64,000 nt of DNA from a bacterium (lineage in GTDB: Bacteria; Vulcanimicrobiota; Vulcanimicrobiia; Vulcanimicrobiales; SCRA01). Where the stretch lies: contig SCRI01000044.1 in the NCBI GenBank assembly GCA_004298675.1, positions 1-64,000 on the forward strand, read 5' to 3'. Shown in pieces: positions 42,097 to 56,368 of this stretch (position 1 is its first letter; each line of letters starts with the position of its first letter). The notes below the pieces were generated by a model. The model saw only the letters and a program-made list of their open reading frames with translations, did not search any database and had not been told where the DNA came from. The position numbers and the translations under genes are program-made.

Positions 42097-42291
42097 CTAA
42101 CCGCGCTCGTCCCTCATCGCGCTGCGCAGCGATGCCACGAGCTCCGGAGAGTCCTGGTGCCCGTGCGTGGAGATGGCGTGCTCGCGTGCGATCTTGAGCA
42201 CCTCTTCCTCGGTGCCCGAGATCATGAGCGAACAGTTGGTTTCGCTCGGATAGAGCCGGCAATCGAGGACCTTGCGCGTTGCAGTAGCCAT
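42097..42291 (-). CDS. DUF1059 protein
   Basis: A 64-residue protein fitting DUF1059: VLDCRLYPSETNCSLMISGTEEEVLKIAREHAISTHGHQDSPELVASLRSAM, with the family's Cys pair and a late HAISTHGHQDSPEL. These small proteins have a GTP-cyclohydrolase-feedback-like or metal-binding fold of unknown role. ATG 42291 is nine bases after GAGGAGG. A sigma-70-type promoter stands 45 bases upstream. It is convergent with the glycosyltransferase gene, nine bases apart. Confidence 0.85.
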   Translation of the reverse strand: MATATRKVLDCRLYPSETNCSLMISGTEEEVLKIAREHAISTHGHQDSPELVASLRSAMRDERG

Positions 42292-42335
42292 GCCGTGATC
42301 CTCCTCTGGAACGGTCACCCAGCCATTCTCGCATC

Positions 42336-42403: not shown

Positions 42404-43240
42404 TCAACCCTTGTACGTGACGATCCTGCCCCAATCCGACTTCATGCCCCACAAGCCGCTGCGCAGCGTCTCGAGTTGCACGATCTGGCTGTGGTCGACG
42501 AAGAGATTGACCTCGGGTCCGTAGTTCTTCACGTACCACGAGAAGACGTCCGGGTCGGCGGCTTCGAACATGACGTTCTCCAGCCCCAACTCGTCGATGA
42601 TGCGGGCGGCCACGTCGGTGCGCCACGTCGTGACGTTCTCCGTGATGCCCTCGGACTCGATCATGAGCACGTGCGCGCCGGCATCCAAGAAACGCCTGCC
42701 TTGAGCGATGGCGTAGGCCGGATCGCGCGTCCCCTCAGCTTGCAGCTCCTCCGAGCTGGTGGCGCCGCCGGCGCCGAACTGGATGCCGATCTCCGGCTTG
42801 GGCACGAGGCCGGCCTTGGCCACGCGCTCGATCAGACGCAGCCAATCATCGGTAGGATAGGTGACGAAGCCCGCGGATATCTCGAGGATGTCGAAACCCA
42901 CCGCCTTGCACTCTTCGATGTAGCGATCGACGGTGCCGTTGCCGTAGGTCAGAACCCGTTCGATGAAACCGCCGGTGGAGACCAGTACGTTGAAACGGTG
43001 TGCTGTCTCGATGATCTCGGTCAGCGTCTTGCGCGGCATCAGCACGAACGATCCGCCGGCGAACTTCAGGCTGTCGACGTACGGCGACATCGTCTCGAGG
43101 ACGTCCTCCAGGTAGCGCCGGCCCATCGCCGTATAGTAGGGGCCGCGAATCTCCGTCAAGCCGACCTTACGCGGCTTGCTGCTGCGGCGGTTGACGGGAA
43201 TGAACGGGAAGGCTCGCACCTCCCGCATGAGTTCGTTCAT
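42404..43240 (-). CDS. Phosphosulfolactate synthase (ComA)-family protein
   Basis: A 278-residue TIM-barrel protein of the ComA family. KPRKVGLTEIRGPYYTAMGRRYLEDVLETMSPYVDSLKFAGGSFVLMPRKTLTEIIETAHRFNVLVSTGGFIE is the family N-terminal half, and GFDILEISAGFVTYPTDDWLRLIERV and GAHVLMIESEGITEN follow. ComA joins sulfite and phosphoenolpyruvate to phosphosulfolactate in coenzyme M synthesis, but bacterial relatives are of unproven function. AAGGAG before ATG 43240 overlaps the end of the MmgE/PrpD gene, so the pair is an operon. Confidence 0.8.
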   Translation of the reverse strand: MNELMREVRAFPFIPVNRRSSKPRKVGLTEIRGPYYTAMGRRYLEDVLETMSPYVDSLKFAGGSFVLMPRKTLTEIIETAHRFNVLVSTGGFIERVLTYGNGTVDRYIEECKAVGFDILEISAGFVTYPTDDWLRLIERVAKAGLVPKPEIGIQFGAGGATSSEELQAEGTRDPAYAIAQGRRFLDAGAHVLMIESEGITENVTTWRTDVAARIIDELGLENVMFEAADPDVFSWYVKNYGPEVNLFVDHSQIVQLETLRSGLWGMKSDWGRIVTYKG

Positions 43241-43244
43241 GGTC

Positions 43245-44645
43245 TTACTCCTTGGGGTTGCGCAGCAGCGCCGTGAGCTCGCCGACGCGGCGGCGCTCCA
43301 GGTCCTGCACGACTCCGATGATCTGTCCGCGGATCGCCTCATCGGCGTGCGGCGCGGCCAGTATGTTGAATTTCTCGACAGCCTGCTCCCAGCGCATGGG
43401 ACGGGTGGCATACCCGGCGTAGTCATCTTTCGCGATGCTCAGGGTGCGGCCGCCGGAAAGTGTGATGGTCAGATGGGCCGGCATCAGCGCGGGGAACTTG
43501 GCGCTGAGCGCCGGATCGGGTGCTATCCGCACCCGCCGCAACAGGCGCTGCACGTCGTCGCGCACGATGCGCTCGGGCAGATATTGACGCGGCGTCAGCT
43601 CTCCGTCCAACAGCGCCACGGCCAGCATGTAGGGAAGGCTATGATCGGCCTCTTCCTTCGTGGTGACGGTGTGCTTCTCGCCCTCTTCGCCGCCGCCGAT
43701 GATCTTGTGCGCGACGTCGAACGTCGCCAGCTCGATGCTCTCGACGTCCTCACCCTTCAGGCCGTGCTCTTGGCGCAGCTCGAGGATGCCCTCGACGGCC
43801 GACTGCGAGTGGATCTCGGCGTTGAAACGCTTGATGCTCGTGCGTTCCACCGAGCGCAGCGCGTCCGGCGTCCACGCGATCGTGAAGTGCCCCGCGATGG
43901 CATCCATGAAGCCCTTGTTGCCCTCGAAGACTTCGAGCGGGCCGGTGATGCCGTGCTCGGCCAACAACGCCGCGAACATTCCGTTCATGCCGGTGTAGGG
44001 ATAGGCCAGGCCCTTCCAGTTGGAGAGCCTGCCGGTGCGCGTGACGCGCAGCGCATTGTTTGCCGTGCCGCTGATGGCGATGGCGTGAGCGCTGCGCTGC
44101 CAGTCGAGTCCGAGCGCGTAGGCGGCGCCGGCGACCGCGGCATACGCGCCTTGCGTGGTGTGATCGAAGCCCTTGTCGCGTACCGGCGCCACCTCCGAGA
44201 GGCGGCACTGCACGGCGTACGCGATCGCCAGCGCCGCGATCAGACGCTCCCCGCCGGCACGCACGTGCTCCGCCGCTGCCAGCACCACGCCTAGGTTGTC
44301 GCTGGGATGACAGGTCTCGTGCTTGGCGAGAAAGGCGTCGTTGAAATCCAGATAGCGCACCAGGGCGCCGTTGTAAAGCGCGGCGCGATCCGGCGACGTG
44401 CTCCCGCCCCCGATCAACGTGGCGGTGGGCGTGCCGCCGAGATGCTCGACCAGCTCACGCATGGCGCGTAACGGTGGCGCACCCAGCGCTCCGATGGCGC
44501 AGCCCAGCGCATCGAGGATGCGGACCTTCACCGCCGTGCGCGTCGACTCGGCGAGAGCGCCGGCGTTGACGCCTTGAACGAATTGCGCGAGGCGCTGCAC
44601 CTCGGTGGTCGCGCGCGCGCTGCCCGGTAACGTAACCGTCGTCAT
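43245..44645 (-). CDS. MmgE/PrpD-family protein
   Basis: A 466-residue protein of the MmgE/PrpD family, whose known members dehydrate 2-methylcitrate or act on itaconate- and cis-aconitate-type acids. KVRILDALGCAIGAL, NGALVRYLDFNDAFLAKHETCHPSDNLGVVLAAAE (active-site DFND and HPSDN), FDHTTQGAYAAVAGAAYALGLDWQRSAHAIAISGT and FNAEIHSQSAVEGILEL are typical. It is not linked to methylcitrate-cycle genes here; it lies just upstream of a ComA-like gene. The substrate is unknown. GGAGG lies ten bases before the ATG. Confidence 0.88.
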   Translation of the reverse strand: MTTVTLPGSARATTEVQRLAQFVQGVNAGALAESTRTAVKVRILDALGCAIGALGAPPLRAMRELVEHLGGTPTATLIGGGSTSPDRAALYNGALVRYLDFNDAFLAKHETCHPSDNLGVVLAAAEHVRAGGERLIAALAIAYAVQCRLSEVAPVRDKGFDHTTQGAYAAVAGAAYALGLDWQRSAHAIAISGTANNALRVTRTGRLSNWKGLAYPYTGMNGMFAALLAEHGITGPLEVFEGNKGFMDAIAGHFTIAWTPDALRSVERTSIKRFNAEIHSQSAVEGILELRQEHGLKGEDVESIELATFDVAHKIIGGGEEGEKHTVTTKEEADHSLPYMLAVALLDGELTPRQYLPERIVRDDVQRLLRRVRIAPDPALSAKFPALMPAHLTITLSGGRTLSIAKDDYAGYATRPMRWEQAVEKFNILAAPHADEAIRGQIIGVVQDLERRRVGELTALLRNPKE

Positions 44646-49429: not shown

Positions 49430-50287
49430 TCACCCCCGCTGCGCCGCGGCGATCACCGCACGCGCCGCGATGACATCGGCCATCGCCGCGCGGTACTCGG
49501 CGCCGGCATAGGTGTCGCTGCGCGCCTCCACACCGCGCGCAGTCTGGGCGCAGACCGACTCCATCTTGGCATGGTCCCGCACGGACAGGCCGGTTAGCAG
49601 CGCCTCCACGTGCGTGGCGCGGAAGGGTACGCTGCCGACGCCGGTGACCGCAAGGCGCGCCCCCTCGATCTTGCCGCCGCTCACCTCCAGCACACAGGCC
49701 ACCCCTACCACCGGATAATGTGAAGCCGGATGTGGCAACTTGACGTACGCCGAAGCGAGCGCGGGCCGCGGTACGATCACCGTCGTCAGGACCTCGCTTG
49801 GCTCCAGCGCCGTCGTGAACATGTCGACGAAAAACTCGCTTGCCGCCACCGTACGCGTCCCGGTGGATGCGGCGATCTCAAACTGCGCCTCCAGCGCCAG
49901 CAGCGCCGCGGGCTCATCCGAGGCGGCGTCGGCATGCGCGGCGGAGCCGCCCAGCGTTCCGCGGTGGCGCACTTGGACGTCGCCCACCGCGGCGGCGGCT
50001 TCGGCCAGCACGGGGGCGAAGGCCGCGACTTCCGCGCTCGCGGCAACCTCCGCGTGCGTGGTCAGCGCGCCGATCTCCAATCCTCGCGCCGCACGCGTGA
50101 CGCCGCGCAATCCGGGGAGGCGGCCCAAGTCGACGAGCACGCCCGGACGGGCCAGCCGCAGCTTCATCATCGGAAGCAGCGAATGGCCTCCAGCCAGCAG
50201 TTTGGCATCGTCGCCGTGCTGCTCCAGGAGCGCGATCGCCTGCTCCACCGAACTAGCCGCCACGTAGTCGAAGCTCGCGGGAATCAC
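49430..50287 (-). CDS. coxM: CO-dehydrogenase-type molybdenum hydroxylase, FAD subunit
   Basis: A 285-residue FAD subunit. The two FAD-binding motifs AGGHSLLPMMK (31-41) and TLGGSAAHADAASDEP are clear, and the C-terminal CO_deh_flav_C domain follows. It passes electrons from the 2Fe-2S subunit to the acceptor. Its ATGA overlap with the coxL stop (50284-50287) fixes the start and marks the S-L-M operon. It is the last gene of the minus-strand structural unit. Confidence 0.92.
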   Translation of the reverse strand: MIPASFDYVAASSVEQAIALLEQHGDDAKLLAGGHSLLPMMKLRLARPGVLVDLGRLPGLRGVTRAARGLEIGALTTHAEVAASAEVAAFAPVLAEAAAAVGDVQVRHRGTLGGSAAHADAASDEPAALLALEAQFEIAASTGTRTVAASEFFVDMFTTALEPSEVLTTVIVPRPALASAYVKLPHPASHYPVVGVACVLEVSGGKIEGARLAVTGVGSVPFRATHVEALLTGLSVRDHAKMESVCAQTARGVEARSDTYAGAEYRAAMADVIAARAVIAAAQRG

Positions 50288-52632
50288 GATACCGCCGCCT
50301 TTCCATTGGCCTTACCGTCGTGGCCGTTGACGATGCGCCAGATGCGCTCGGGCTTGCAGGGCATATCGACGTTCACGACGCCGAAGGGTGCTAGCGCGTC
50401 GACGACCGCATTGACCACGGCCGGCGTGGCGCCGATGGTCCCCGCCTCGCCGACGCCCTTTATGCCCATGGGATTCACGTCGGTGGGCGTGACGGTCCGA
50501 TCCAATTCGTAGTTGGGCACTTGATTGGCGTGCGGCACGGTGTATTGCAGCAGCGAACCCGTGGCCAACTGCCCGTTCTCGTCGTAGACGATCTCCTCGT
50601 ACAGCGCCTGCGCCAAGCCTTGCGCGATGCCGCCATGCACCTGGCCTTCGACGATCATGGGATTGATGACGTTGCCGCAGTCGTCGACGGCGACGTACTT
50701 CACCACCTTCACCGCGCCGGTGGCACGCTCGATCTCCACCACGCAGACATGGGTTCCAAACGGATAGACGAAGTTGGGCGGCTCGAAGCGGCGCGTGGCC
50801 TCCAGCCCGGGCTCCACGTCCGCAGGCAGATTGACGCCCCGGAATGCGGCAAAGGCCACCTCGGCCGTCGACATCGACTTCTCGGGATTGCCTTTGACGG
50901 AGATCTTGCCGTTCTTGAACTCCAGGTCGCCGACGTTAGCCTCCATCTGGTGGGCGGCGATCTTCAGCGCCTTCTCGCGCACCGTCTCCAGCGCGTTGTA
51001 GAGCGCCGCGCCGTCGACGGCGGTGCTGCGCGACCCGAACGTGCCGATACCGTACTGCACCACGGCCGAGTCGCCGTGCAGCACCACGACATCGTCGATG
51101 GGAACGCCGAGACGCTCCGCGACCATCTGCGCGAAGGTCGTCTCCTCGCCTTGACCGTGCGGTGAGGCTCCCGTCATCACCGTCACTCCCCCCGTGGGTT
51201 CAACGCGCACGGTGGCGCTGCCCCAACCCGGCGCGGGCAGTGCGGAGGAGGGACCCATACCACACACTTCGACGTACGACGAGAGACCGATGCCGAAGAG
51301 GCGCCCCTCGTCGCGCGCGCGCGCCTGTTCTTTACGCAAGGTATCGTAGCCCGCGATCCGCAGCGCCTTCTCGAGCGCGGCGTGGTAGTCACCGCTGTCA
51401 TACGTCAGCCCCATCGCGGAGGCGTAGGGGAATTGCTCCTTGCGGATCAGATTGCGGCGCCGTACCTCAGCGGGATCCAGCGCCAGCTTGGCGGCAACGA
51501 GATCGATCGCGCGCTCGATGAGGAACGTCGCTTCAGGGCGCCCCGCGCCGCGGTAGGCGTCGGTGGGGGCCTCGGTCGTGAAGAGGCCGTGCAGCTTGAC
51601 CGAGACGCTCTGCAGATCGTAGGCGCCGGGGACCATCAACAGCGTGAGCGTCGGGATCGCAGGCGTCAGCAGCTGATGATACGCACCGAGGTTGGCGAGG
51701 ATCTCCACCTTCAAACCGGTGATGCGCCCGTCCCGCTGGGCGGCAACGTCGATGAAATCGATCTGATCGCGCCCGTGGACCGTGGACATGAAGCTCTCAC
51801 TGCGGGTCTCGACGTACTTCACCGGCCGTCCCAACGCGCGCGAGGCGAACGCCGCCGTAATCTCCTCGGCATAGACGTCGAGCTTGCTTCCGAAGCCGCC
51901 GCCGACGTCCGGTGCGATGGTCCGCACGCGCTGCTCGGGTACCTTCAGCGCCAGCGCCATCTGCGTGCGTAACAGGTGCGGAATCTGCGTCGACGACCAC
52001 AACGTGAGATGCGCCGGGCCCGGCTCCCAGTGCGCCACCATGCCGCGCGGCTCGATCGAGACCGGCGCGACGCGCTGATTGAGCAGGCGCTCGGAGACCG
52101 TCACGGCGGCGTTCGCGAACGCTGCCTCGACGTCGCCGCTGTTGACCTCCATCGTGTAGGCGACGTTGGTGCCGAACTCGTCATGCACGTAGGGCGCGCC
52201 TTTGAGCGCGCGCTCGAGGTCGACGACCGCGGGCAGCTCCTCGTACTCGACGTCGACCAACTCGGCGGCGTCGTTCGCCTCCTCGGGCGTGCTCGCGACG
52301 ACGGCGACGACGGGCTCCCCCACGTGCGCCACGCGTCCGCGCGCCAGCGGCGGATGTTTGGGCACCTTCAAGCCTTCGATCTGCGGTGCGGTGGGAACGT
52401 CACCCACGTCGCGCAGATCGTCCGCGGTGAAAACCGCGAGGACGCCGGGTGCCGCTTGAGCGGCCGAGACGTCGACACGCACGATGCGCGCATGTGCGAA
52501 CGGCGAGCGCGCGAAGGCGGCGTAGGTCATGCCGGCGAGCTTCACGTCGTCGACGTACGTGGAGCGGCCGGTGATGAGCCGTGGGTCTTCGCGCCGTGTG
52601 ACGCGCGCGCCCATCATACTGGTGAAGGCCAT
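50284..52632 (-). CDS. coxL: CO-dehydrogenase-type molybdenum hydroxylase, large subunit, form II
   Basis: A 782-residue molybdopterin-cytosine-dinucleotide subunit. GGGFGSK (244-250) and the active-site loop AYRGAGR (359-365) are visible; the loop marks form II. True form I CoxL has AYxCSFR with the Cys that holds copper, which is absent here. The catalytic Glu is in GVGEAGTIG (about 729). Form II enzymes are suspected to oxidise aldehydes or other substrates as well as, or instead of, CO. It lies between coxS and coxM. Confidence 0.93.
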   Translation of the reverse strand: MAFTSMMGARVTRREDPRLITGRSTYVDDVKLAGMTYAAFARSPFAHARIVRVDVSAAQAAPGVLAVFTADDLRDVGDVPTAPQIEGLKVPKHPPLARGRVAHVGEPVVAVVASTPEEANDAAELVDVEYEELPAVVDLERALKGAPYVHDEFGTNVAYTMEVNSGDVEAAFANAAVTVSERLLNQRVAPVSIEPRGMVAHWEPGPAHLTLWSSTQIPHLLRTQMALALKVPEQRVRTIAPDVGGGFGSKLDVYAEEITAAFASRALGRPVKYVETRSESFMSTVHGRDQIDFIDVAAQRDGRITGLKVEILANLGAYHQLLTPAIPTLTLLMVPGAYDLQSVSVKLHGLFTTEAPTDAYRGAGRPEATFLIERAIDLVAAKLALDPAEVRRRNLIRKEQFPYASAMGLTYDSGDYHAALEKALRIAGYDTLRKEQARARDEGRLFGIGLSSYVEVCGMGPSSALPAPGWGSATVRVEPTGGVTVMTGASPHGQGEETTFAQMVAERLGVPIDDVVVLHGDSAVVQYGIGTFGSRSTAVDGAALYNALETVREKALKIAAHQMEANVGDLEFKNGKISVKGNPEKSMSTAEVAFAAFRGVNLPADVEPGLEATRRFEPPNFVYPFGTHVCVVEIERATGAVKVVKYVAVDDCGNVINPMIVEGQVHGGIAQGLAQALYEEIVYDENGQLATGSLLQYTVPHANQVPNYELDRTVTPTDVNPMGIKGVGEAGTIGATPAVVNAVVDALAPFGVVNVDMPCKPERIWRIVNGHDGKANGKAAVS

Positions 52633-52649
52633 GGAGCCCTCCTCGCCGA

Positions 52650-53159
52650 TCAGTCAGCGGGTGCGCCGACGCGCTCGCGTGCCGGTTTGGCGGCGCGCAT
52701 CGCGGCGGCGGCGTGTTGAACGGCCTTGACGATATTCTGGTAGCCGGTGCAGCGGCAGAGATTGCCCGAGATGGCTGCGCGAATCTCGTCTTCGGTGGGA
52801 TCGGGATTGCGCTGCAGCAAGTCGCAAGCCGAGACGATCATTCCCGGCGTGCAGTAGCCGCATTGCAGACCGTGCTCCTCCCAGAACGCGGATTGCACGG
52901 GATGGAGGTGCTCGGCATCGCCGATGCCCTCGATCGTCGTGACGCTCGCACCGTCCGCCTGAACGGCCAGCAGCGTACAAGATTTCACGGACCGGCCGTC
53001 TAGCAAGACCGTACACGCGCCGCACGACGACGTGTCGCATCCGACATGGGTGCCGGTCAAGCCGAGCGTATCGCGCAGAAAATAGACGAGCAGCGTGCGG
53101 GGTTCTACTTCACCCGTCCACTTCGCGCCGTTCACGGTCACCGAAATCGAATGTTTCAT
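52650..53159 (-). CDS. coxS: CO-dehydrogenase-type molybdenum hydroxylase, 2Fe-2S subunit
   Basis: A 169-residue protein with two 2Fe-2S clusters: the plant-type site [21 protein letters not shown] and the second site QCGYCTPGM...[12 protein letters not shown]. It carries electrons from CoxL to CoxM. ATG 53159 is preceded by GGAGG and gives the usual start VTVNG. It heads the minus-strand S-L-M unit and is divergent from coxD across 87 bases. Confidence 0.95.
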
Positions 53160-53246
53160 GGTGACGCCTCCAGCGAACGATGAGGGATGAGCGCCTTTCA
53201 ACGCGAACCGAGCGTTGTCCCTGCGTGACGTAAGGAGAGCGCACCC

Positions 53247-54101
53247 GTGAACGAGCCTGCCACCGTCGAGGAGATGCTCGCGCGACTCCGCCAGGCGGAA
53301 TACCTGGCCGACACGGGGCTCGCTACGGCCCTCCAGCTCGCCGTGCGCCTGCGCCATCCTCTGCTCTTGGAGGGCGAGGCGGGAGTAGGTAAGACCGAGG
53401 CCGCGAAAGCGCTCGCGCGCGTTCTCGATCAGCCGCTGATCCGCTTACAGTGCTACGAAGGGCTCGACGTGCACGACGCCGTTTACGAGTGGAACTACGG
53501 CCGCCAGCTCCTGGCCATCCGGCGCAGCGAGAGCGGAGGTCAGGCTCTCGGCGATCTCTACGCCGAGGAGTTCCTCATTCGCCGTCCGCTGCTGCAGGCG
53601 CTGGCGGGCGGTGTGCTGTTGATCGACGAGCTCGATCGCGCCGACGATGAGTTCGAAGCGTTTCTCCTCGAGTTTCTGGGCGAGTTCACGGTCACGATCC
53701 CGGAGCGCGGCCTGTTCCGGGCCGCGGCGCCGCCGGTGGTGCTGCTGACCTCCAACCGCACGCGCGAGCTGCACGACGCGCTCAAGCGCCGCTGCTACTA
53801 CCACTGGATCGAGCATCCCAGCCCGGAGCGCGAGCTCGAGATCCTGCGCGCGCGCTTGCCGCGCCTGGGCGCGGAGCTGACGCGTGGCGTCGCCACCGCC
53901 GTGGCGCGGCTGCGCGCGCTGGAGCTGCGCAAGCCGCCGGGCATCGCGGAGTCGCTCGATTGGGCGCAAGCTCTCGGCAGCCTCGGCGCCGTTCGCCTGG
54001 ATGAAGACGCGGCCGAGCGTACGCTAGGCGTCGTGTTGAAATACCGCGAGGACGCGGAGCTGGTGTTGGGGCGGGGGTTAGCCGCGGTGGTCGGAGCGTA
54101 G
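53247..54101 (+). CDS. coxD: CoxD-like MoxR-family AAA+ ATPase
   Basis: A 284-residue AAA+ ATPase. Walker [19 protein letters not shown], Walker [28 protein letters not shown] and sensor [26 protein letters not shown] fit CoxD, the ATPase that helps install sulfur and copper in the CODH active site. In a form II enzyme, which has no Cys for copper, its job is presumably the Mo-site sulfur. The GTG start follows AAGGAGAG. It opens the plus-strand maturation unit. Confidence 0.92.
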
Positions 54102-54107
54102 GCGCAG

Positions 54108-55256
54108 GTGCCCACCGCCGCACCACGCGCCCTCGCCGCGCTCACAGGTTTCGCCCGCGCTCTACGCGCCGCGGGATTACCCGTTCCCGAAGGCGGCGTG
54201 GCCCTCTGCGCCGAGGCCTTGGATGCGCTGGACGCGGCGCAGCCGCGCGCGCTCTACTGGGCGACGCGCCTGAGCCTGCTGCGGCGCCGCGGCGATCTCG
54301 AGCGCTTCGAGCGCGTCTTTCAAGCCTACTGGACCGGCCTCCACAGCCTGCGCCTGGAGGCTCCGGTGCCGGAGCACCAAGCACCCGCGGCGCCCGCGGC
54401 CCTGGTGCCGCTCGGCACGCACGCGCCCGACCCCGCTGCCGCGACGCGGGAGCAGATCGTACCGCTGGCGCTGGCGTCTTCCAGCGCGCGCCTGCGGCAG
54501 ATGGACTTCGCCGCCTATAGCGAGCACGAGCACCGGCTCGCCGCGCGCTTGATCGAGGAGTTGCGCGTCACGCTTCCGACGCGGCGCTCGCGCCGCGTTC
54601 GCCCCAGCGCGCACGGCCGCCGCGTCGACGTGCCGCGCACCCTGCGCCGTAGTCTGCGCACCGCCGGCGACCCGGTTCGCTTGACGTATGCCGGCCGCCG
54701 CCGGCGCACCCGCCCGCTGATTCTGCTGTGCGACGTCTCCGGCTCGATGAGCGCGTACAGCCGCGCGCTGATCCAGTTTCTGCGAGCGGCCGTCGAGTCG
54801 CGTGCGGGCATCCGCGTCTTCGCCTTCGGCACGCACTTGGTGGAACTCACGCATCCGCTAGCGGCCGCCACGCGTGACGGTGCGCTGCGCGCGGCCACGC
54901 GTTGCTTCGACGATTGGGGCGGCGGCACGCGTATCGGCGCCTCGCTGCGGAGCTTCGTGCGGCACTACGCGCAGCGCGGCGTCACGCGCGGCGGCGTCGT
55001 CGTGATGCTCTCGGACGGCTGGGAACGCGAGGAACCGGCGCTCGTAGGCGAGCAGATGCGGCGCCTGCGCCTCCTGTGCCACCGTCTGATCTGGGTAAAC
55101 CCCAACAAGAAAGATCCCACCTTCGAGCCGCTCGCAGCCGGCATGGCCAGCGCCCTGCCGTTCGTCGACGCGCTGGTCGCGGGCCATAATCTGCATGCGC
55201 TCGAAGATCTGCTGGCGCTGGTGCGCCGGCTTGGAGACGAGGAGTCACGCCGGTGA
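54108..55256 (+). CDS. coxE: CoxE-like VWA-domain protein
   Basis: A 382-residue protein with a von Willebrand factor A domain in its second half: ILLCDVSGSMSAYSRALIQFLRAAVES (MIDAS metal site) and GGGTRIGASLRSFVRHYAQRGVTRGGVVVMLSDGWEREE. The N-terminal half is helical with a charged Arg-rich segment. CoxE partners with the AAA+ protein CoxD. Start GTG 54108 lies six bases after coxD; the next start overlaps its stop (GTGA). The final LIWVNPNKKDPTFEPLAAGMASALPFVDALVAGHNL is typical of the family. Confidence 0.9.
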   Translation: MPTAAPRALAALTGFARALRAAGLPVPEGGVALCAEALDALDAAQPRALYWATRLSLLRRRGDLERFERVFQAYWTGLHSLRLEAPVPEHQAPAAPAALVPLGTHAPDPAAATREQIVPLALASSSARLRQMDFAAYSEHEHRLAARLIEELRVTLPTRRSRRVRPSAHGRRVDVPRTLRRSLRTAGDPVRLTYAGRRRRTRPLILLCDVSGSMSAYSRALIQFLRAAVESRAGIRVFAFGTHLVELTHPLAAATRDGALRAATRCFDDWGGGTRIGASLRSFVRHYAQRGVTRGGVVVMLSDGWEREEPALVGEQMRRLRLLCHRLIWVNPNKKDPTFEPLAAGMASALPFVDALVAGHNLHALEDLLALVRRLGDEESRR

Positions 55257-56368
55257 AAGACATCGCCGAACAGGTCGACCGTTGGCGCCGTGAGGGCCGC
55301 CGCGTGGCCGTGGCAACGATCGTGCAGGTGGAGCGTTCGGCACCGCGCGGGCCGGGCGCGGCGATGGCCGTCAACGACCGCGGTGAGGTAGCCGGCTCGG
55401 TCTCCGGCGGCTGCGTCGAGGGCGCGCTAGTCGAAGAAGCCGAGCGGGTCCTGGAAAGCGGCGAGGCGCGCCTGGTGACCTACGGCATCTCCGACGAACA
55501 GGGCCTCTCGGTCGGTCTCACGTGCGGCGGTACCATCCATTGCTTCGTGCAGCCGCTCTACGACGAGTTTCCGGTCTTGGCGGAGGCTCTGCGCCGCGAC
55601 GAGCCGATCGCCCTCTGCGTGGAGATCGAGGGCCCGGACCGTGGCGCCACGATGCTGGTGCGGCGCGACGGCACGAGCGAGGGCTCGCTCGGCAACGAGG
55701 GCCTCTCGCATCGCGTGCGTGAGGATGCCAACTCCTGCCTGGCGCGCGGTTCCTCCGCCACGCGCGAATACGGGCTGAACGGCCAGCCGCTGGAGAGCGG
55801 CGTGCGCCTCTTCATCGACGCCTTCGTTCCGCGCCCGGAGCTCTACATCTTCGGCGCGGTCGACTTCAGCCGCGCGCTCGTGACGCTGGGGCGCTACCTG
55901 GGATATCGCGTCACGGTGGCCGACGCGCGCCGCGCCTTCGCCACGCGCAAGCGTTTTCCCGATGCCGATGAAGTCGTCGCCGCCTGGCCGGACGAGTTTC
56001 TCGCGCAGGCGCCCGTGGACGAACGTACCGTGATTTGCGTGTTGACACACGACCCGAAGTTCGACGTGCCGCTGCTCGTCGTCGCGCTGCGCACGAACGC
56101 CGGCTACATCGGCGCGATGGGCAGCCGCTCGACGCACGAGCGCCGCGTGGCGGAGCTGCGCGCACAAGGCGTGAGCGACGACGAGCTGGCGCGCATCCGC
56201 GCCCCCATCGGTCTGGACATCGGCGCGACGACACCGGAGGAGACCGCAGTGGCCATCGCCGCCGAGATCGTCGCCCTGCGCACCGGCCATCCCTCGGGGT
56301 TCCTGGCCTCCAGCAGCGGGCCCATCCATCGCGCCCGCTTCCAGGAGCACCCGGCTCCGGCGGTATAA
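55253..56368 (+). CDS. coxF: XdhC/CoxF-family molybdenum cofactor chaperone
   Basis: A 371-residue protein with an XdhC_CoxI N-terminal domain (VERSAPRGPGAAMAVNDRGEVAGSVSGGCVEGALVEEAERVLESG, LTCGGTIHCFVQP) and an XdhC C-terminal Rossmann domain (YIFGAVDFSRALVTLGRYLGYRVTVADARRAFATRKRFP, LTHDPKFDVPLLVVALRTNAGYIGAMGSRST). It hands the sulfurated Mo cofactor to the hydroxylase. The CGG Cys is the likely cofactor ligand. It starts at GTG in a GTGA overlap with coxE. Confidence 0.93.
   Translation: MKDIAEQVDRWRREGRRVAVATIVQVERSAPRGPGAAMAVNDRGEVAGSVSGGCVEGALVEEAERVLESGEARLVTYGISDEQGLSVGLTCGGTIHCFVQPLYDEFPVLAEALRRDEPIALCVEIEGPDRGATMLVRRDGTSEGSLGNEGLSHRVREDANSCLARGSSATREYGLNGQPLESGVRLFIDAFVPRPELYIFGAVDFSRALVTLGRYLGYRVTVADARRAFATRKRFPDADEVVAAWPDEFLAQAPVDERTVICVLTHDPKFDVPLLVVALRTNAGYIGAMGSRSTHERRVAELRAQGVSDDELARIRAPIGLDIGATTPEETAVAIAAEIVALRTGHPSGFLASSSGPIHRARFQEHPAPAV

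Follow-up and report, generated by a model that had tools for sequence, protein, structure and literature searches.

The window, a stretch of 64,000 nucleotides of bacterial DNA, carries two adjoining genes that probably encode a two-protein aconitase free of iron-sulfur clusters, a stand-in for use when iron is short. One product belongs to the MmgE/PrpD family and the other is a TIM-barrel protein resembling ComA, which in some Nitrospirota would also provide the hydratase step of the methylcitrate cycle. We infer both reactions, the metal and the direction. The MmgE/PrpD protein would act as a cofactor-free dehydratase, converting citrate to cis-aconitate and water, and the ComA-like protein would add water across the double bond of cis-aconitate to give isocitrate. 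This hydration would probably proceed through a Mg2+-stabilised enolate, as in ComA with sulfite. The pair would back up the ordinary enzyme when iron runs short or Fe-S clusters are damaged, and a ComA-like enzyme of this kind would hydrate 2-methyl-cis-aconitate in some Nitrospirota.

In the citric acid cycle aconitase is the textbook Fe-S enzyme, and a well-known victim of superoxide, nitric oxide and lack of iron. Fumarase has known iron-free stand-ins; the open-access papers searched contain no description of an iron-independent aconitase or of a PrpD-ComA pair, although an account elsewhere is possible. If the proposal is correct, many bacteria and archaea could keep making 2-oxoglutarate without iron through the pair. 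It would also give a function to a large protein group now labelled phosphosulfolactate synthase, correcting a misleading annotation, and would account for cg2796-cg2797, a DtxR-controlled operon of an industrial organism.

Layout and conservation of the gene pair

Both genes lie on the reverse strand. The MmgE/PrpD gene (43245–44645, 466 aa, predicted citrate dehydratase yielding cis-aconitate) ends with a stop codon at 43247–43245, and the ComA-like gene (42404–43240, 278 aa, predicted Fe-S-free hydratase of cis-aconitate to isocitrate) starts 4 bases past it with an ATG at 43240–43238. The ribosome site of the second gene, AAGGAG as read from the sequence (43253–43248, reverse strand), abuts the stop codon of the first, with 7 nt between it and the ATG. 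The listed ComA-like open reading frame extends to 43426 (340 aa) because it starts at an earlier ATG, within the MmgE/PrpD gene; the conserved protein begins at 43240, and the 62 extra codons lie outside it. Codon-position composition is as expected in both reading frames. Pfam matches are strong for the ComA-like frame (PF02679, 264 bits against a cut-off of 25.2) and the MmgE/PrpD frame (PF03972, 233 bits; PF19305, 153 bits), and a scan of the pair returned ComA and MmgE/PrpD domains only, with no aconitase domain (PF00330). The preliminary description had proposed that the genes are coupled, with a ribosome site at the MmgE/PrpD stop and no coenzyme M or methylcitrate genes beside them. 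All of this agrees with the layout seen here: none of the latter genes was found beside the pair in the window, and a profile search of the window genome gave no PrpB above the equivalog cut-off.

The arrangement is widely conserved. With the ComA-like protein as sole query, a search of a collection of genomes from bacteria and archaea produced 80 loci, with proteins 55–90% identical. At 67 of these 80 loci, chosen by the ComA-like protein only, the ComA-like gene has an orthologous MmgE/PrpD gene no more than 1 kb away on its own strand, which precedes it in 62 cases and follows it in 5, often with overlap. At one further locus the partner is ~3 kb away, and for three loci (L007, L009 and L032) it is located elsewhere in the genome. 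The neighbourhood survey that had been suggested for this pair therefore bears out its conservation, with pairing far above chance. Carriers are spread over about a dozen bacterial phyla, among them Nitrospirota, Acidobacteriota, Myxococcota, Bacillota, Balneolota, Bacteroidota, Pseudomonadota, Actinomycetota, Chloroflexota, Planctomycetota and Gemmatimonadota, and the pair is also found on plasmids of Salinibacter, Methylosinus, Methylocystis and haloarchaea. Within the loci examined, no neighbour beyond the pair itself, metabolic genes included, recurs across phyla. Consequently the pair looks like a self-contained two-gene module.

Some genomes carry the ComA-like gene without an MmgE/PrpD partner. 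In Pontibacter (L038, L042) it directly follows an MFS transporter gene and the genome has no MmgE/PrpD relative, so this ComA-like protein may act on an imported acid. Matches to the ComA-like protein occur in 16 of 242 Corynebacterium genomes. Only 2 of 105 Enterococcaceae genomes have the gene, both together with AcnA and LeuC, which makes co-occurrence in this family uninformative. In two Corynebacterium genomes (L222 in G770 and L223 in G628) the pair is decaying: one has both genes in pieces, and the other has an intact MmgE/PrpD gene and a remnant of the ComA-like gene. In Rhizobium and Pseudochelatococcus the pair is preceded by a divergent gene for a protein of ~160 aa with no Pfam match (L066, 6826–7314; L068, 6852–7331).

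The two proteins compared with ComA and PrpD

ComA reportedly adds sulfite to phosphoenolpyruvate (PEP) via a Mg-stabilised enolate, and its K137 is a proposed catalytic residue. The ComA-like protein of the pair shares the PF02679 fold with the M. jannaschii enzyme; its AlphaFold model (mean pLDDT 86.5) matches the ComA structure 1qwg with TM 0.79/0.86. Its score against the archaeal ComA equivalog model TIGR03849 is only 88 bits, however, below the cut-off of 280. An alignment of the pair subfamily to M. jannaschii ComA and further PF02679 proteins shows that K43, E103, E133, E168 and E205 (ComA numbering) are retained. In contrast, K137, which is present in all other aligned PF02679 proteins, is replaced by Gln, and R170 by Glu. 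The corresponding residues of the window protein P0001, Q154 and E197, are invariant in 39 sequences. Because these two positions are replaced while the barrel residues and the ComA fold persist, the fold and the enolate-type addition chemistry are probably kept, whereas the PEP- and sulfite-accepting site of ComA seems not to be. Unlike ComA, moreover, the protein has a partner and an operon unrelated to coenzyme M. The preliminary description had held that loss of PEP/Mg-binding residues together with absence of conserved pairing would speak against its reading; the pairing is conserved and the barrel glutamates remain, but K137 and R170 are lost.

The partner is related to PrpD at some distance. 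It is only 27% identical to the E. coli protein and falls far below the cut-offs of the PrpD equivalog models (167 versus 950, 118 versus 575 and 99 versus 458 bits), and its neighbour is a ComA-like gene rather than PrpB or PrpC. The fold of PrpD (1szq, 5mux) is nevertheless shared, as are the motifs HPSDN, DH, LRxxR and AExHSQ, which are missing from four other MmgE/PrpD paralogues. Its structure model is closest to the structures of PrpD and cis-aconitate decarboxylase. Given these PrpD-specific site residues and nearest structures, the natural reading of the partner, as judged from sequence and model, is a citrate or methylcitrate dehydratase. PrpD of E. coli reportedly uses citrate, and the NCBIfam model NF006943 names the PrpD family as bifunctional with aconitate hydratase.

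Methylcitrate operons and iron control

The methylcitrate cycle runs through PrpC, PrpD, a hydratase converting 2-methyl-cis-aconitate to 2-methylisocitrate, and PrpB. The hydratase is AcnB, or AcnD with PrpF, and these hydratases are Fe-S enzymes. Locus L031, which lacks the usual partner, has prpB and prpD after its ComA-like gene. Three more such operons came from surveying Nitrospirota and the DNA around the matches: L182 has the ComA-like gene, prpB, prpC and prpD in a single run, and L179 and L180 have the ComA-like gene, prpB and prpD. The PrpB and PrpD proteins of these operons exceed the NCBIfam equivalog cut-offs; PrpC exceeds the subfamily cut-off but is 7 bits short of the equivalog one. 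In the four operons the ComA-like gene is present, but no gene for the 2-methyl-cis-aconitate hydratase of the known cycle was found. The aconitase-family proteins of the four genomes are ~440–470 aa (LeuC-like) or 650–700 aa long, with none of AcnB or AcnD size, and the 650–700 aa protein might perform the hydration instead.

This position in the hydratase slot of prp operons is the main reason for predicting that the ComA-like protein hydrates cis-aconitate-type acids. As in the known cycle, a PrpD-type dehydratase is followed by a separate hydratase, with the ComA-like gene in the hydratase's place in Nitrospirota. The known hydratases, however, belong to the Fe-S aconitase superfamily, whereas the ComA-like protein is a TIM barrel that has no sequence or fold similarity to them in our searches. 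The prp-linked ComA-like proteins form one supported clade nested within the tree of the pair, and the one member measured (from L031) shares 68% identity with the protein of the window. Being confined to one lineage, the prp association is one evolutionary event.

The same context bears on the earlier suggestion of an unknown pathway for a sulfonated or citrate-like acid. A conserved functional pair stands, and it very probably acts on a citrate-like acid in a pathway not recognised before, but a sulfonated product is not supported. The step missing from the methylcitrate-cycle operon, the other genomic home of the ComA-like gene, is a hydration and not an addition of sulfite, and the ComA residues and score described above point the same way.

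A link to iron is seen upstream of the pair in several lineages. Of 12 actinobacterial loci, 8 have a DtxR-box-like site just before the pair that is better than ~296 other sequence windows of the same locus, of which 0 are as good; an example is TTAGGTAAGGCTTACCTAA in L079 and L083. The Psychrobacter pair is preceded by GAAAATGATAATCATTATC, with one mismatch to the Fur consensus. Outside Psychrobacter, Fur boxes before the pair are weak or absent, and no recognisable iron box was found before the pair of the window itself. The annotated counterparts of the pair in C. glutamicum, cg2796 (MmgE/PrpD) and cg2797 (ComA-like), form an operon that is reported to be DtxR-repressed (PMC2627906, PMC1382209, PMC2807442). 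In an iron-depleted clone cg2796 rose 11-fold while acn and leuC fell to 0.29 (PMC9491836); a cg2796-cg2797 deletion mutant showed no phenotype with indole, the only stress applied (PMC7764795). Since the C. glutamicum control genome had no match to PF02679, the identity of cg2796-cg2797 with the pair rests on the published annotation and a shared DtxR site: in Corynebacterium G775 an intact pair is preceded by GAAGGCAAGCCTAACTTAA, one base off the published cg2796 site.

Some further neighbours fit Fe-S stress, more weakly. These are OxyR-like LysR genes (below cut-off) in Bacteroidota and Veronia, a Dps-type gene in Salinibacter, and a SufR-like regulator (below cut-off) in Balneolota. In Balneolaceae (L015, L017, L021, L023–L027, L030, L034 and L036) the pair follows this SufR-like regulator and an unassigned protein of ~260 aa, with DUF2249, ferredoxin and respiratory oxidase genes nearby, and the region is possibly an Fe-S or NO stress island.

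Which enzyme would be replaced

Aconitase is the best candidate for the Fe-S enzyme that the pair would replace. The reaction proposed for the two proteins together, from citrate via cis-aconitate to isocitrate, is that of the [4Fe-4S] enzymes AcnA and AcnB; the pair differs in consisting of two unrelated proteins with no predicted Fe-S cluster, between which cis-aconitate would be released. All 57 carrier genomes tested (48 + 9) contain aconitase-family proteins. No carrier lacking every aconitase was found among these, and replacement by absence is thus not seen. An ordinary Fe-S aconitase is present as well in nearly all carriers, which would make the pair a reserve, comparable to FumC beside FumA. 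FumC has been described as an iron-independent backup enzyme (PMC10653786). The resemblance to such backups lies in a non-homologous iron-free enzyme kept alongside an Fe-S enzyme for times of oxidative stress or scarce iron, although here two proteins would do the work of one and the papers searched describe no such backup for aconitase.

Other explanations were weighed against this one. Another citrate-like acid might be made or degraded, such as an imported aconitate isomer or a citrate-type iron chelator; a chelator is equally consistent with iron control, and the MFS transporter gene directly ahead of the Pontibacter gene would suit an imported acid. We nonetheless regard this as unlikely, since the loci examined show neither a siderophore synthase nor a recurrent transporter around the pair. 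A little less likely again is an iron-free 2-methylcitrate dehydratase and 2-methylaconitate hydratase serving propionate detoxification and not the citric acid cycle. The Nitrospirota relatives in prp operons and the PrpD-like site residues of the partner are what such a role would predict. It is made improbable by the absence of prpB and prpC beside the pair, both in the window and in 90 loci with the sole exception of L031; in addition, the window genome lacks a PrpB over the cut-off, and iron control with the opposite change of acn points to aconitase.

Replacement of a different aconitase-family Fe-S isomerase, above all the isopropylmalate isomerase LeuCD, is considered very unlikely. 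LeuCD catalyses a dehydration and rehydration of the same type, leuC declines together with acn in iron-depleted C. glutamicum, and ilv or leu genes lie near a few corynebacterial and Lentibacillus pairs. However, two isolates (Aequorivita capsosiphonis and Aliifodinibius salipaludis) and one metagenome-assembled genome have the pair and an aconitase while lacking both LeuA and LeuC, which rules out a role of the pair in leucine synthesis in these genomes, and the prp context and PrpD-type site point to citrate-type acids. A ComA-like protein that joins sulfite to PEP or an unsaturated acid, with the pair making a sulfonated citrate-like compound, is marginally the least probable of these explanations. 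The ComA fold would allow it, and DsrE-family, sulfurtransferase or arylsulfatase genes are found near a few plasmid copies of the pair. Set against this are the replacement of K137 and R170 throughout the subfamily with a score far under the ComA cut-off, the need of the prp operon for a hydratase, and the lack of recurring coenzyme M or sulfonate genes near the pair. With LeuCD and purely methylcitrate roles disfavoured, aconitase stays the best candidate.

Two other features of the window were noted. A small DUF1059 gene (42097–42318, reverse strand) follows the pair, as it does in close relatives of the window, and in Halorussus halophilus another DUF1059 gene (L154, 6562–6720) sits between the two genes of the pair. 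DUF1059 was considered as a third partner and rejected, as among the sequence-searched loci only the close relatives of the window have it, plus the one annotated Halorussus case. Further along, at 49430–53357 (reverse strand) and 53247–56368 (forward strand), are genes for CoxM/CoxL/CoxS-like molybdenum hydroxylases, accompanied by MadB-like ATPase, VWA and XdhC-type maturation genes. The Cox-like large subunit carries the motif AYRGAGR, which we take to be that of form II and not of true (form I) CO dehydrogenase.
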